24,258 nt of DNA, taken from the NCBI GenBank assembly GCA_003242115.1, contig QBMP01000029.1, positions 1 through 24,258 of the forward strand, written 5' to 3'. This document shows positions 8,749-24,258 of this stretch, piece by piece; positions within the stretch are counted from its first letter, which is position 1, and each line of letters begins with the position of its first letter. The notes beneath the pieces are model-generated. The model was not told the origin of the DNA. It was given only the letters and a program-made list of their open reading frames with translations, and ran no database searches. The position numbers were made by a program, and so were the translations under genes. The stretch comes from Phormidesmis priestleyi. Its GTDB lineage: Bacteria; Cyanobacteriota; Cyanobacteriia; Phormidesmidales; Phormidesmidaceae.

Positions 8749-9711
8749 TTACTGATAGGGCTTAGCAGCGTTAGGGGCATTATCTTGATAGGCTTGGTCG
8801 AGCCAAATTTGGGCGCGCACGGGGCCATAGTGCTCTCTTAAGGAGCGCTCAACTCGCTCACCAATGGTGCTGGCAATCACCATAAACTCTGGATGTAGGG
8901 CTAAGTGAAGCTCTATCCAAACTTGGCGACCAACCATACCGCGCGATAAAATTCGGGTACAGCGAGTGACGCCTTCTATTTGGCAGGCGATTTGAGCGAT
9001 CGCTTCAGGCGCTATTGCGGTAGGCTTTAGCAGCATCGGCAGTTGCTTGTTCAACATTTGCCACAGGCTTTTAACCAGCAAAGCCACTAGCCCGACGGCT
9101 AAAAGCGGATCTAGCCAGCGATAACCGTTGGCAATGGCTACTAGCCCCAACAGCACTAACCCGGTTAGCCAAGCATCTGCCATTAGATGCTCAACATTGA
9201 GCTTTAGTGCCAAGCTATTGAGCGATTTGCGCTGTTTTGCTGCGGCCAGCACAGCGGCAGCGACTAAGATCACCATCACCACAATTAAAATGATCAGCGA
9301 TCGCGTGACGGCTACCGGCAAAGCAGCCCTAACGCCGCCTTGAGCACCTTGGGCATAACTACTCTGCAACGACAGCGCCTGCACCAGCACCTCAACCTGG
9401 CTCAGTGCCATTATCACAATTGAAATGCCAGCAAACCCCAACATCGCTGACAGCAGAAGCGCCCCAGCCGCTTCACCTCGACCATGACCCCAAATTTCTT
9501 TACCGAGCGTGCGATGAGGCGAAGACACCGCAATTAGGCTCAGCAACGTACTAAACACATCTACTAATGTATGCAGCGATTCGGCCAACAAGCACAAAGA
9601 ACGGCTGATCCAACCAGCCGTTAACTCAACTACAAACAATAAAAGCGTTGCCCACAATATCAATAGCAGCAGGCGATAGCTTACCCGCCGCTGGTGTCCG
9701 AGTCCATTCAT
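8749..9711 (-). CDS. Cation diffusion facilitator (CDF) metal transporter
   Basis: 320 residues, a typical CDF size. CDF proteins are homodimeric proton antiporters that export Zn2+, Co2+, Fe2+, Cd2+ or Mn2+. Six hydrophobic segments are visible. The transport site residues are H47-xxx-D51 (HTLVD, in the LLAESLHTLVDVFSTLLS helix) and H175-xxx-D179 (HLMAD). The GHGRGE motif (75-80) after the second helix is the usual GHGKxE. The C-terminal residues about 230-310 look like the ferredoxin-fold metal-sensing domain. His in both tetrads is typical of Zn-type members, but specificity is not provable here, and no His-rich loop is present. The ATG at 9711 is the first plausible start. A promoter plus terminator-like hairpin lies about 170-270 bases upstream on the same strand, so expression could be attenuated. 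Confidence 0.9.
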   Translation of the reverse strand: MNGLGHQRRVSYRLLLLILWATLLLFVVELTAGWISRSLCLLAESLHTLVDVFSTLLSLIAVSSPHRTLGKEIWGHGRGEAAGALLLSAMLGFAGISIVIMALSQVEVLVQALSLQSSYAQGAQGGVRAALPVAVTRSLIILIVVMVILVAAAVLAAAKQRKSLNSLALKLNVEHLMADAWLTGLVLLGLVAIANGYRWLDPLLAVGLVALLVKSLWQMLNKQLPMLLKPTAIAPEAIAQIACQIEGVTRCTRILSRGMVGRQVWIELHLALHPEFMVIASTIGERVERSLREHYGPVRAQIWLDQAYQDNAPNAAKPYQ

Positions 9712-9879
9712 AGCGCTTAGGCTATCACGAAGGGAAGCTTACCGCATGTCGTTGAGCCGGTCATTGACCAAAAATTTTGAAGCATTATGATTGGCTTTTT
9801 TAAGCCTTTAATGCCCGCCTTTACCAGTCTTTATTATCGGAGAGGGAACGCTTTAGTTGCGCTGTTGAATCGTTTAAAA

Positions 9880-9945
9880 TCAGAAAAGGCACCGACGACT
9901 GGCCGTGTTTCGTCTCGGTGCCTTAACTGGTTCGCTCCTCACACT
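9880..9945 (-). ncRNA. Candidate ~65-nt small RNA (or terminated leader of the CDF gene)
   Basis: On the minus strand a near-consensus promoter is followed, about seven bases later, by a short unpaired segment (GTGTGAGGAGCGAACCAG). Then come a strong hairpin and a T-rich tail (TTTTCTGATTTT). This is the anatomy of a self-contained small RNA gene of roughly 65 nt. The hairpin arms AAGGCACCGA/TCGGTGCCTT are perfect, and GAC/GTC inside extends the stem past a single bulged G, leaving a 12-base loop. The unpaired 5' end contains GTGTGAGGAGC, which is complementary over ten bases to the ACUCCUCACAC core of the cyanobacterial small RNA Yfr1, and is also Shine-Dalgarno-like. Because the CDF gene lies downstream on the same strand, the same elements could instead form a transcription attenuator in its leader. 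I recognise no riboswitch fold. There is no expression evidence. Confidence 0.45.
9886..9924 (-). terminator. Rho-independent terminator (minus strand)
   Basis: The ten-base arms AAGGCACCGA (9924-9915 read on minus) and TCGGTGCCTT (9895-9886) are perfect, extended by GAC/GTC, and followed on the minus strand by TTTTCTGATTTT. On the plus strand no T tract follows, so the direction is minus. It would end the candidate small RNA or interrupt read-through into the CDF gene. Confidence 0.75.
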
Positions 9946-9950
9946 CAACT

Positions 9951-9979
9951 AATATAGAGGATGTTTTCACTTTTGTCAC
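9951..9979 (-). promoter_or_regulatory. Near-consensus sigma-70 promoter for the candidate small RNA
   Basis: On the minus strand GTGACA (9979-9974; 5 of 6 to TTGACA) and TATATT (9956-9951; 5 of 6 to TATAAT) are separated by exactly 17 bases. The predicted start is around 9946-9944, just before the GTGTGAGGAG segment. Confidence 0.5.
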
Positions 9980-10053
9980 CTGGGGTGGACATTGCTCTGA
10001 CTGGCACAGCTGATTAGATTTAATCTCTAAAAGTCTTCGTCAGCGGCTGAGTG

Positions 10054-10089
10054 AGCGCAAATCTCCATAAAAGCGCAAATCCCTATAAA
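10054..10089. repeat. 18-base tandem duplication across the DALR stop codon
   Basis: AGCGCAAATCTCCATAAA (10054-10071) is followed directly by AGCGCAAATCCCTATAAA (10072-10089), with two differences. The second copy contains the stop codon of the minus-strand DALR gene, so the duplication may have created or moved that stop. Confidence 0.9.
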
Positions 10090-11207
10090 TCAATCGGTGC
10101 TTTTTCACCCAGGCAGTTGCGCAGCAATACGTTCAGCCTATTTTTTGTGGCCATTACCAGGCCAAACCAAACCTGAAACCGAAACCTTTCAGCTTCACTA
10201 GCGGTTACTGAAAGCTTGCCAAACCCACCCAAACAAGTCCGATGAAAGCAGTCAAACGCTTGGCATAGGAGGCTTGCACGCTTCAACAGCAAAATATGTT
10301 GCCGTAGGGGCCAGCGATAAGGAATCCAAAACATATCATCGGCTGTTTCAATAAGTAACTGAATCAACTGCCAAGATTGAGGGGTGTTACCCCTCAGTTG
10401 ATAGCTATTTGTTAGCCAAGGTAGCTGTGCAGATTGAGACATCTCGCTATTAATGAGTTGAGCCTCATGCCAAAGCCGCAGCAATCCGCAGCAGCGCGCA
10501 TGAGTATGTTGAATTTGCCATAAAGATACGTGAATATCTGCACAAGCGTCATTTTTCTTAATGGAATCAAACTCTTTAGAAAATAGCGAGGAAATTGAAT
10601 AGCTTAGAGGTGCCAACGGGCTCTGATTTAGAAATAGCTGAGAAAGCTGATGGTCTTTTTCACAAAATGTTTGAGACTGCTGTAACCACCCGGCAATCCC
10701 AACCTCAGAAAGGCGAAATGATAGCCATCCTAATCGCTGAGTTCCTATCTCAAAATTAGACCATAGTTGAGCTGCTGAAGCTAAATTGCAGGGATTGTGA
10801 TCTGGCTCACAAGAGAGTTGATGCTGCTGACTTTCTCTTAATTGATTGAAAACCCATTCAGAAATGCTTAAAAGAGATTGGTTTTGCATTAGAGGACTGC
10901 TTTTGGCTAACACTTTAGGCAATGCAGACACGTAAAGAACTGATCTGGCAGTTTGCTTTTTTTGAAGCGGTATTTTTGGCCAAAGCTTTTCTTTGTCGTC
11001 CACCCCGAAAACAGCGCTGCTCAAAGCCTTGTAAGAGCCTCCAGGTATAGAGTTGAAGTTTGCCAGGTGGCCTGACGAAGCCGATGAATGATCGCTGTTT
11101 TGTGAAGAGATGATGAAGCTGTCTGCTGAGGCTTCATCATTACCCAATAAAAATCGATCTAGGCTGCATAACAGGACAGCTTTGAGGGGTAAATTTATCA
11201 CAGTCAT
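10083..11207 (-). CDS. Stand-alone DALR anticodon-binding-domain-like protein
   Basis: 374 residues from ATG 11207. A TTG at 11267 would add 20 residues; neither start has a clear ribosome-binding site. The C-terminal ~150 residues resemble the all-helical DALR domain with which arginyl-tRNA synthetase grips the anticodon stem. HTHARCCGLLRLWHEAQLI matches the Y-AHARI-SILRKA block of ArgRS. A later FHRTCLGGFG and the final FGLVMATKNRLNVLLRNCLG-KAP resemble the F-C-VLG and ALVAATRQVL-LGL-LLG-APERM end of ArgRS. There are no HIGH or KMSKS motifs and no Rossmann fold, so it is not a synthetase. The N-terminal ~130 residues are Ser-rich with no recognised domain. A tRNA- or RNA-binding role is an inference. 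The gene is visibly AT-richer and uses more TTA/CTT/AAA codons than its neighbours, and I noticed no HIP1 site from about 9305 to 12375. Confidence 0.65.
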   Translation of the reverse strand: MTVINLPLKAVLLCSLDRFLLGNDEASADSFIISSQNSDHSSASSGHLANFNSIPGGSYKALSSAVFGVDDKEKLWPKIPLQKKQTARSVLYVSALPKVLAKSSPLMQNQSLLSISEWVFNQLRESQQHQLSCEPDHNPCNLASAAQLWSNFEIGTQRLGWLSFRLSEVGIAGWLQQSQTFCEKDHQLSQLFLNQSPLAPLSYSISSLFSKEFDSIKKNDACADIHVSLWQIQHTHARCCGLLRLWHEAQLINSEMSQSAQLPWLTNSYQLRGNTPQSWQLIQLLIETADDMFWIPYRWPLRQHILLLKRASLLCQAFDCFHRTCLGGFGKLSVTASEAERFRFQVWFGLVMATKNRLNVLLRNCLGEKAPIDL

Positions 11208-11625
11208 AGATCGCCAATAAGATAAAGAAAGCGTTTTAACAAGAGGGGTGATTACCGTCTTTATCAAAGCATTTTAAGATTTGTATGCACTTAGTCCGAA
11301 AAAATGCTGAAGTGTAGATAAAGTAAGAAATTTAATCGTACAAAACCCAACAATTTATATTAATGTACTTACAACATTCGACACGTACCGTCTAATTCAC
11401 GCATCTTTTGTTGCTGAGCAATGTGAGCAATAACTGATGATGACAGTACAAATCACAGGCCATTGAATGCCCCTTTAAGTAATGGTTATGTGAGATCACT
11501 ACCTACTAACACTTGATTAGAAGATGCCTAATTTGAACTGTCCGTGTTTTTACGGATGATGAGGATTGTAGTGATTGTCTATGTCTATTTCGGCTCAAAG
11601 TTATGCCATTACTCAAGTGCGTTAG
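11208..11625. other. 418-base divergent intergenic region (DALR / Crp-Fnr)
   Basis: An AT-rich spacer between divergent genes should contain promoters in both directions. I see three GTAC words (near 11339, 11364 and 11385) and a GTGA-GA-TCAC partial dyad near 11492, but no site with CRP (TGTGA-N6-TCACA) or NtcA (GTA-N8-TAC) spacing. A 31-codon frame starting at 11556 overlaps the Crp start and lacks a ribosome-binding site. Nothing else is supportable. Confidence 0.5.
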
Positions 11626-12372
11626 ATGACACTATCTTCACCCGTTAAGCTCAACTCTAGTATTGCGAATATGTCCTCTCCTTCTTCTTCAGACAATGCC
11701 CGTCCATTTCTGGCATGGCAGCGTATTTCTGATTGGGCTAGCGAACACTATCGGTGCCGCACATTCAATAAAGATGAGAAGATCCCGGCCAGGCCCGGAT
11801 TGCTGTATTTGGTGCAAAAAGGGTCTGTTCGGCTGTTGGGTAACGCTCAAGTTAATGCGACTATCCGCAAAAAGGGCACTGCTGCGAGGCTGCCTTCAGT
11901 AGCTGCAGAAGAAGCTTTCTTAGGCTTTGTCGGGGCCGGTCAACCGTTTGAGGTGGTAGCTCAGCCGCCGTTTACGCTGCAGAGCTTTGCCCATGTGGAT
12001 CAAACTACGGTGATTTGGCTGTACTGGAATGATTTGGACACTTGGCCTCATTTTCAAAAAGAGGTGTTGGATGCTTTTCGCCGTCAGCATCAGCGTAAGC
12101 TTTTGTGGCTGAGCACGCTGGGTCAGCGCCGAACGATTGATCGGCTGCTGGGCTTTTTAACGCTTTTAATCGACGAGCATGGTGAACAGTGTGAGCAGGG
12201 TTATTATCTGCCCTTTCCGCTGACTCATGCGCAAATTGGCAGCGCGATTGGCTCTACCCGGGTAACGGTAACTCGGCTGATGGGCAAGCTGCGTCAGGGC
12301 GGGCTGATTCAGAACTATGGCGACAATTTGATCTGCATTTCTAAGGAGACGGATTGGAAACGGCAGGGATGA
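11626..12372 (+). CDS. Crp/Fnr family transcriptional regulator with NtcA-like helix-turn-helix
   Basis: 248 residues. An N-terminal sensor region (about 40-135) looks like a shortened or divergent cyclic-nucleotide-binding beta-barrel, beginning with LLYLVQKGSVRLLG (59-72). A dimerisation helix follows (about 143-185, ending RRTIDRLLGFLTLLIDEHG). Then a winged helix-turn-helix with LTHAQIGSAIGSTRVTVTRL at 199-218; the IGSTRVTVTRL core matches the recognition helix of the nitrogen regulator NtcA, so target sites may resemble NtcA boxes. The cAMP-binding R-S/T motif of Crp is not visible, so the effector is unknown. The protein is longer at the N-terminus than NtcA (about 223 residues), and I do not think it is NtcA itself. 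An alternative ATG at 11671 would remove 15 Ser/Pro-rich residues. It converges on the copper ATPase gene; no regulatory link is shown. Confidence 0.85.
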   Translation: MTLSSPVKLNSSIANMSSPSSSDNARPFLAWQRISDWASEHYRCRTFNKDEKIPARPGLLYLVQKGSVRLLGNAQVNATIRKKGTAARLPSVAAEEAFLGFVGAGQPFEVVAQPPFTLQSFAHVDQTTVIWLYWNDLDTWPHFQKEVLDAFRRQHQRKLLWLSTLGQRRTIDRLLGFLTLLIDEHGEQCEQGYYLPFPLTHAQIGSAIGSTRVTVTRLMGKLRQGGLIQNYGDNLICISKETDWKRQG

Positions 12373-23505: not shown

Positions 23506-24258
23506 GCCTGTCGGAGAGAAGAATTTTCGTCTAGCATTGAGGGACTATCAAGTGAGACATTATGCCTCGAAAATTCAAAACGGTAGATTACGGGATGATA
23601 TTAAAGCAAACCGTTAGTATTGAAGATTGCTTGCCCCCAAGTCATCTTGCTCGTTTTTTGGTCGAGGTAATCTCTCAGCTCGATCTGGGTAGTATTTACA
23701 ACGAGTATGGAGCAAAAGGTGGAATTGCAATTGCGCCAGAGATTTTACTCGGACTATTGATATACGGTTATGCCACAGGCATTTTCAGCTCTAGGAAGAT
23801 AGAACTAGCAACCCATGAATCAATCCCATTCCGATACATAGCGGGGAACTTGCATCCTGACCATGACACAATTGCTAATTTTCGCAGTCGTTTTTTAGAA
23901 CAACTTGAAGAATTGTTTGTTCAAGTGTTGGAAATGGCAGTTTTGGCAGGAGTATTACAAGTTGAAGACATCAGTGTTGATGGCACTAAAATTCATGCCG
24001 ACGCATCGAAAAGTAAAGCGGTGAGCCACAAGCGGCTTGAAGAGAAACGAGTACAGCTACGGATGGAAGTAGAAGAACTGCTACAAATGGGTCAACAGGC
24101 AGATAGAGCGAAAGTCCTGGAAAGTATTGATATTCCCGCAGAAATTGACCGTCGTAACAAGCAGTTGGACAATCTTGCCGAAGCGCAAAAAGCGTTACAA
24201 CATCGTGCGCGAGAACGATTTGAAGCAGAACAGGCTAAATATAGTGAAAAAATGGCGG
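23500..24258 (+). mobile_element. Insertion sequence (IS1182-like), left end, continues past window
   Basis: The transposase frame, the drop in GC content, and the interruption of an adjacent reading frame all indicate an insertion sequence. The left terminus is probably near TAGCAGCCTGTCGGAGAG (23501-23518), because the remnant gene ends there. The inverted repeat and target duplication cannot be checked without the right end. Confidence 0.7.
23562..24258 (+). CDS. IS1182-like transposase (3' end outside window)
   Basis: The first 232 residues of a DDE transposase. The N-terminal region (about 15-120) is the DUF772-type domain seen in IS1182/IS5-group enzymes: APEILLGLLIYGYATGIFSSRKIE (59-82, the L-L-Y-Y-G--SSR-IE pattern), then HPDHDTIANFRSRF (98-111). 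VEDISVDGTKIHADASK (134-150) contains the first catalytic Asp (D140). A charged helical stretch (155-232) follows, which in this group separates the first Asp from the rest of the catalytic core. The second Asp and the Glu would lie beyond the window, so intactness is unknown. ATG 23562 is preceded by GTGAGACATT, a weak ribosome-binding site. The sequence is AT-richer than its neighbours and I noticed no HIP1 site in it, consistent with recent arrival. Confidence 0.9.
   Translation, partial: MPRKFKTVDYGMILKQTVSIEDCLPPSHLARFLVEVISQLDLGSIYNEYGAKGGIAIAPEILLGLLIYGYATGIFSSRKIELATHESIPFRYIAGNLHPDHDTIANFRSRFLEQLEELFVQVLEMAVLAGVLQVEDISVDGTKIHADASKSKAVSHKRLEEKRVQLRMEVEELLQMGQQADRAKVLESIDIPAEIDRRNKQLDNLAEAQKALQHRARERFEAEQAKYSEKMA

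Follow-up and report, generated by a model that had tools for sequence, protein, structure and literature searches.

A probable Yfr2-family (Cyano-1) small RNA gene upstream of a CDF cation-efflux gene in Phormidesmis priestleyi

A stand-alone small RNA (sRNA) gene of the Yfr2 family (Cyano-1) very probably lies on the minus strand of the window, the whole 24,258-nucleotide stretch of Phormidesmis priestleyi DNA analysed here. The gene would have its own sigma-70-type promoter and a product of ~65 nt that ends in a terminator-like hairpin and most likely pairs with Yfr1, and the CDF cation-efflux gene downstream would be an incidental neighbour. The sequence-only reading of this region had proposed either a new sRNA gene or an attenuator of metal export. 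The features referred to throughout are as follows, in the direction of transcription for the sRNA gene and then for its neighbours:

9974..9979, minus strand: -35 element GTGACA (promoter scan; TGAC conserved in relatives)
9951..9956, minus strand: -10 element TATATT, with a 17-nt spacer to the -35 element (promoter scan; TAnnnT conserved in relatives)
9880..9945, minus strand: predicted Yfr2-family (Cyano-1) sRNA (RF01701 match and orthologs; both ends predicted)
9935..9944, minus strand: 5' motif GUGUGAGGAG, unpaired in the predicted fold, complement of the Yfr1 motif CUCCUCACAC
9927..9934, minus strand: conserved extension CGAACCAG (alignment of family sequences)
9912..9924, minus strand: 5' arm of the hairpin, 13-bp stem (fold and covariation)
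9900..9911, minus strand: apical loop GAAACACGGCCA, 12 nt (same in 25 of 25 distinct family sequences)
9886..9899, minus strand: 3' arm of the hairpin, with a single bulged G at 9896 (fold and covariation)
9876..9887, minus strand: T-rich tail TTTTCTGATTTT, terminator-like, its first two T being the end of the stem (sequence)
8749..9711, minus strand: CDF cation-efflux gene, incidental downstream neighbour (PF01545, E 2.7e-19; TIGR01297, 106.7 bits, above cut-off)
10083..11267, minus strand: hypothetical gene upstream, on the same strand as the sRNA, without a Pfam or NCBIfam match
11626..12372, plus strand: divergent Crp/Fnr-type regulator gene (PF13545, E 5.9e-12)

The elements lie where the sequence-only reading had placed them. 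On the minus strand, GTGACA (9979-9974) and TATATT (9956-9951) are separated by 17 nt, AGTTGA-GTGTGAGGAGCGAACCAG and then the hairpin follow downstream of the -10 element, and the promoter, the predicted ~65-nt transcript, the hairpin and the T-rich tail occur in the proposed order between 9979 and 9876. The transcript is predicted to start near 9945 and to end near 9880, or at ~9876 with the second T-run included. The claimed hairpin is also borne out, as AAGGCACCGAGAC/GUC(G)UCGGUGCCUU spans 9924-9886, its 13-bp stem carrying one bulged G and closing on a 12-nt loop, and the T-rich tail comes next; the hairpin was absent from the output of a terminator scan that admits loops of 3-8 nt. Its fold has a z score of -2.5 (2 of 200 shuffles fold equally well), and nine promoter-like sites were observed in 10 kb against 9.7 expected from shuffles. 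Judged from the window alone, the promoter and hairpin make a weak case, barely above chance, hence it is the comparison with relatives that decides.

A relaxed Rfam search of positions 9700-10100 matched the full length of RF01701 (Cyano-1; model positions 1-69 of 69) at 9948-9881, with 39.3 bits and an E-value of 2e-5. The Rfam cut-off for this family, an operational limit, is 41 bits and the window copy falls below it; at the gathering threshold, three tRNAs are the only Rfam matches in the whole window. The Cyano-1 motif characterises the Yfr2 sRNA family (PMC8400943), whose members Yfr2a-c are expressed in Synechocystis, with the unpaired 5' end and the 12-nt loop as their two most conserved parts (PMC2662882, Voss et al.). 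The window RNA shows the same design as the described Yfr2-5 of Prochlorococcus and Yfr2a-c of Synechocystis PCC 6803: an unpaired, Yfr1-complementary 5' motif like GUGUGAGGAG (left unpaired by the predicted fold and identical in all 25 distinct family sequences), and a 12-nt central loop with GAAACA (GAAACACGGCCA) on a long stem (13 bp) that is broken by one base near the loop. This one-base bulge, on the 3' side and three pairs from the loop, is in the identical position in the RF01701 structure line. The window copy departs from the RF01701 consensus in its loop, GAAACACGGCCA versus GAAACAAGGAAA, as well as in its score. No riboswitch was found among the five Rfam matches in 9700-10100 at E-values up to 10, and other Rfam families were likewise rejected as candidates, the matches there other than Cyano-1 all having E-values of 0.8 or more. 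Thus the earlier statement that the element belongs to no known riboswitch or sRNA family holds for riboswitches and fails for sRNAs, since Cyano-1/Yfr2 is a known family.

The own genome, an assembly ~93% complete that may contain further Yfr2 copies, yielded a single RF01701 match at E-values up to 1 (150 of 266 candidates scored). A search with a covariance model built from the family group (150 of 2165 candidates scored) gave no further Yfr2 copy, its next match (E 0.58) lying at the same site on the opposite strand. Nostoc PCC 7120 has four Yfr2 (PMC6974561). A repeat element was considered and rejected, as blastn found one copy in the genome and six other matches that were short, with E-values of 1 or worse.

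RF01701 matches were present in 55 of 58 genomes searched (own genome included) and exceeded the cut-off in 21 of the 58. Within the taxonomic family of the window (35 genomes, G000-G034), ten genomes were over the cut-off, 24 were below it and one had no match. Two of the ten, G022 and G026, exceed it through a paralog; loci with the same core as the window score over 41 bits in eight family genomes (G010, G013, G018, G019, G025, G028, G030 and G034). We compared 37 family loci, comprising the window and 36 stretches around RF01701 matches. The core GTGTGAGGAGCGAACCA is present in 34 of these, the remaining three being diverged paralogs. These 34 core loci, which yield 25 distinct sequences for alignment, come from 33 genomes: G026 gives only a paralog, and G005 gives two loci that both lie close to a contig end and are probably fragments of a single one. 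In all 25, the 5' motif, the 12-nt loop, the two T that follow the stem and the last two bases of CTG are the same. CGAACCA is likewise present in 25 of 25, the 34 loci having been selected for it, and the final G of the extension in 24 of 25. The GAAC of this extension (CGAACCAG) can pair with GUUC of Yfr1, and its CAG pairs with CUG at 9883-9881.

The hairpin, together with this small CAG/CUG helix, forms standard pairs in 400 of 400 cells of the alignment. Compensatory changes, with both sides altered, occur at nine of the 16 pairs (37 cells, compared with 9.5 +/- 2.1 in shuffles), and sliding the pair partners drops pairing to 31-60%. A further measure of covariation, the number of further pair types, was not above shuffles (12 versus 13.5). 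RNAalifold recovers the same structure from the family sequences unaided. The five stem pairs adjoining the loop show no variation among the 25 distinct sequences.

The promoter is also constant in position. In all 34 core loci of the family, TGAC occupies -37 to -34 with respect to the GTGTGAGG motif, compared with 0 to 3 of the 34 for each of 25 other four-base upstream blocks, and TAnnnT follows at a spacer of exactly 17 nt in all 34. The sequence-only reading had proposed a search of related genomes for the hairpin plus promoter, and when this comparison was run relatives shared both, to an extent that, on these alignments, is far beyond chance. The sRNA gene thus has its own predicted promoter and terminator of the Yfr2/Cyano-1 type, and the stand-alone sRNA gene proposed earlier is supported by the Rfam match, the covariation and the conserved promoter. 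Taken together, the comparisons indicate a real sRNA gene of a known family which the standard Rfam threshold misses in its own genome.

To follow the core beyond the family, a split pattern of 41 fixed bases was searched against a prokaryote genome collection, giving at least 117 stretches, with 80 loci among the matches listed. Of these 80, 79 have cyanobacterial titles (e.g. Nostoc, Calothrix, Oscillatoria, Leptolyngbya, Thermosynechococcus, Gloeomargarita), and L151, titled Candidatus Gracilibacteria, is perhaps a binning error. The wider set overlaps the family set by at least four loci, and its 80 loci were selected by identity in 41 bases, hence only the remaining positions are informative. 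At these positions, all 560 cells for the seven stem pairs that adjoin the core are paired with G-T allowed, the stems comprising 26 different sequences among the 80 loci listed. TGAC at -39 to -32 with TAnnnT at a spacer of 15-18 was present in 78 of the 80 listed loci (all but L114 and L154), the spacer being 17 in 72 of those 78.

The covariance model of the family group gave matches at E-values up to 0.001 in 97 of 291 genomes sampled from the phylum; the other 194 gave none with the strict filters used, under which weak matches can be lost. Eighty-nine of the matches reached at least 65 bits, in 87 genomes. These strong matches to the core group are single-copy in 85 of the 87 genomes that have one, with two copies each in G049 and G280, and matches under 65 bits are probably paralogs.

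The CDF gene is the neighbour that invites a different interpretation, in which the hairpin belongs to a metal-sensing CDF leader and polymerase stops there unless metal is present. The geometry reported for this in the sequence-only reading is correct, as hairpin and CDF gene share a strand and the CDF start (9711) lies ~235 nt from the predicted transcript start. Furthermore, Yfr2b and Yfr2c of Synechocystis share start sites with downstream genes, for which read-through has been suggested (PMC2662882). Neighbours were counted by tblastn at E-values up to 1e-5, in loci with at least 1300 nt downstream or at least 1800 nt upstream; CDF was counted only downstream of sRNA loci, and the wider figures come from the 80 loci listed. 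On this basis, 14 of 32 family loci and 6 of 68 wider loci are followed by a CDF relative in the same orientation, which lies within 400 nt in 10 of 32 and 2 of 68, respectively. For the remaining 18 family and 62 wider loci, tblastn detected none, and there the promoter, core and hairpin persist intact. Since the sRNA persists where no CDF relative was detected downstream, the claim that it is an attenuator controlling metal export is not supported. The distance from sRNA to CDF match also varies, from 45 to 1176 nt. The element does not keep a conserved position in the leader of a regulated gene, nor does it match a described riboswitch family, and a separate conserved block occupies the CDF start itself. 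We consider an attenuator very improbable. At most, the CDF gene would receive read-through from the sRNA, which is possible in the source strain by analogy with the two Synechocystis copies, and with no conserved design.

The block at the CDF start, TTCGTGATAGCCTAAGCGCTATGAA, contains an inverted repeat and lies at 9707-9731 on the minus strand, overlapping the start codon. The pattern AGCCT-N3-5-GCTATGAA occurs at the CDF start in 8 of the 15 family loci with a CDF match, and its N4 form has one occurrence in the own genome. For local control of the CDF gene, this block makes a stronger candidate than the hairpin does.

Upstream neighbours recur as well. The most persistent neighbour tested is a divergent Crp-type gene, seen at 25 of the 32 family loci and 42 of the 59 wider ones; in both sets it is more constant than CDF. 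For the hypothetical gene, tblastn gave an upstream, same-strand relative at 7 of the 32 family and 36 of the 59 wider loci, figures that are lower bounds because this gene is poorly conserved; by these counts it is a more constant neighbour than CDF in the wider set only, and rarer than CDF within the family. The Crp/Fnr-type regulator resembles PtrA (91.4 bits, under the cut-off of 300). NtcA was rejected as its identity (42.8 bits versus a cut-off of 244.95), and alignments with three NtcA chains found among solved structures cover only regulator residues 157-232. Elsewhere in the window, a plus-strand frame at 23562-24257, open at the window end, is presumably transposase-like.

The recurring neighbours contrast with a published remark that yfr2 loci are unconserved and multi-copy (PMC6778093), the orthologs here often having the same upstream Crp-type gene. 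They also share a longer invariant core, GTGTGAGGAGCGAACCA plus GAGACGAAACACGGCCAGTCGTC, than the Yfr2 family as published. By these comparisons, the window copy is one of a group whose core is conserved, whose upstream neighbours recur and whose members often score below the Rfam cut-off.

The hypothetical gene raises a second alternative, namely that the hairpin merely terminates this gene and that the promoter-like sequence is there by chance. The gene is on the same strand, its end is ~137 nt before the Cyano-1 match, and the hairpin is followed by a T-rich tail. Against this, the promoter is kept in 34 of 34 family loci, an invariant loop and 5' motif are needless for termination, a known sRNA family (RF01701) is matched, and the sRNA is retained at 25 of 32 family loci for which the search gave no relative of the upstream gene, which together leave a mere terminator even less probable than an attenuator. 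Finally, a small protein gene of ~20 codons (GTG AGG AGC ... TGA) can be read by eye as an open frame across the element in the window, but scarcely merits belief, as its start codon would sit at the predicted 5' end of the RNA with no room for a ribosome site, the stem changes are compensatory, and 2 of 25 family sequences (G002 and G023) differ in length by one base, which shifts the frame.

For the Yfr2-family sRNA, the proposed partner is Yfr1 (RF01116), which shares the motif as a reverse complement and is a separate gene here, distinct from the window RNA. The own genome has one Yfr1 match (contig C53, 51.8 bits, over the cut-off), with an IMP-dehydrogenase-like (guaB-like) frame upstream as read from its translation; guaB is a published neighbour of yfr1 (PMC6778093). 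Yfr1 was found in 56 of the 58 genomes searched. Its motif, CUCCUCACAC, is a perfect complement (10 of 10) of the first ten bases of the sRNA, GUGUGAGGAG, and beyond one mismatch the GAAC of the sRNA pairs with GUUC of Yfr1. The duplex of the first 22 nt of the sRNA with Yfr1 is predicted at -24.6 kcal/mol, excluding the cost of opening Yfr1's own stem; shuffling the sRNA part 1000 times gave no duplex as low, and shuffling Yfr1 1000 times gave one. The 10-mer complementarity alone is no proof, because CTCCTCACAC has four occurrences in the genome (one being Yfr1 and one the sRNA complement) versus three for the reversed pattern. Published work describes the Yfr1 and Yfr2 motifs as nearly complementary and reports that, in Prochlorococcus, Yfr2 completely prevented Yfr1 or Yfr10 from interacting with ppa mRNA (PMC6778093). 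For Nostoc, gel shifts show an interaction between Yfr1 and Yfr2, and Yfr2 increases under nitrogen deprivation (PMC6974561).

Of the 31 Yfr1 genes read (56 were found), 30 have GTTCA ahead of the motif; the exception is G035 of the genome family f2. The GTT lies within the predicted 5' stem of Yfr1, which gives another reason for its conservation. A longer pairing with Yfr1 was considered as a special property of the core group and rejected, since pairing of the three diverged paralogs with the Yfr1 of their respective genomes is about as strong (-22.1, -25.2 and -23.1 kcal/mol versus -24.6 for the window sRNA). In one genome, G038, a Yfr2-like match of 42.8 bits (C1:1399587-1399658, plus strand) ends 87 nt before a Yfr1 match (1399746-1399809), and the two partners may lie side by side there.

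The 5' motif is more variable in f2, a family of small genomes (1.6-3.0 Mb) that are probably picocyanobacteria. Twelve of its genomes, picked for having zero matches to the family covariance model, all matched RF01701, in 34 places of which 30 were fetched, and ten of the 12 matched RF01116, with GTTC absent before the Yfr1 motif in all ten. The searched form of the 5' motif was found in 16 of the 30 Cyano-1 loci and missing in 14, which carry variants such as GTGTGTAGGAGG or GTGTGAAGGAG when read directly. L010, L259, L260, L261 and other f2 loci have a 5' motif that departs from GUGUGAGGAG, yet in these genomes Yfr1 keeps its motif CTCCTCACAC. Because the 5' motif varies in f2, the description as a perfect complement is not valid across the whole Yfr2 family, and these sequences argue only weakly for co-evolution of the sRNA with Yfr1.

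In the proposed mechanism, an sRNA of ~65 nt would be made from its own sigma-70-type promoter and end at the terminator-like hairpin, both transcription and termination being predicted. As its 5' end is unpaired in the predicted fold and a perfect complement of the Yfr1 motif, the sRNA most likely acts by pairing with Yfr1: GUGUGAGGAG would bind the conserved single-stranded Yfr1 motif and may hold Yfr1 off its mRNA targets, an effect transferred from the published Prochlorococcus and Nostoc work. The invariant upper stem and 12-nt loop may form a second contact site. That they are frozen while the lower stem drifts compensatorily might point to a second conserved partner besides Yfr1. More tentatively, and with rather less than even confidence, we suggest that the window copy represents an orthologous group of its own inside Yfr2 ("core Yfr2"), single-copy for the most part and syntenic in part, in which 41 bases are identical across distant cyanobacteria, with a second conserved partner (protein or RNA) besides Yfr1 and a long-lived link to the upstream Crp-type regulator gene.

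These results replace a supposed new metal attenuator with what would be its correct annotation, a Yfr2-family sRNA, and show that the Rfam cut-off for Cyano-1 (41 bits) misses a conserved Yfr2 copy in 24 of the 35 family genomes. They also provide an ortholog that is well defined by its core, promoter and neighbours for functional work on Yfr1 and Yfr2 outside Prochlorococcus.
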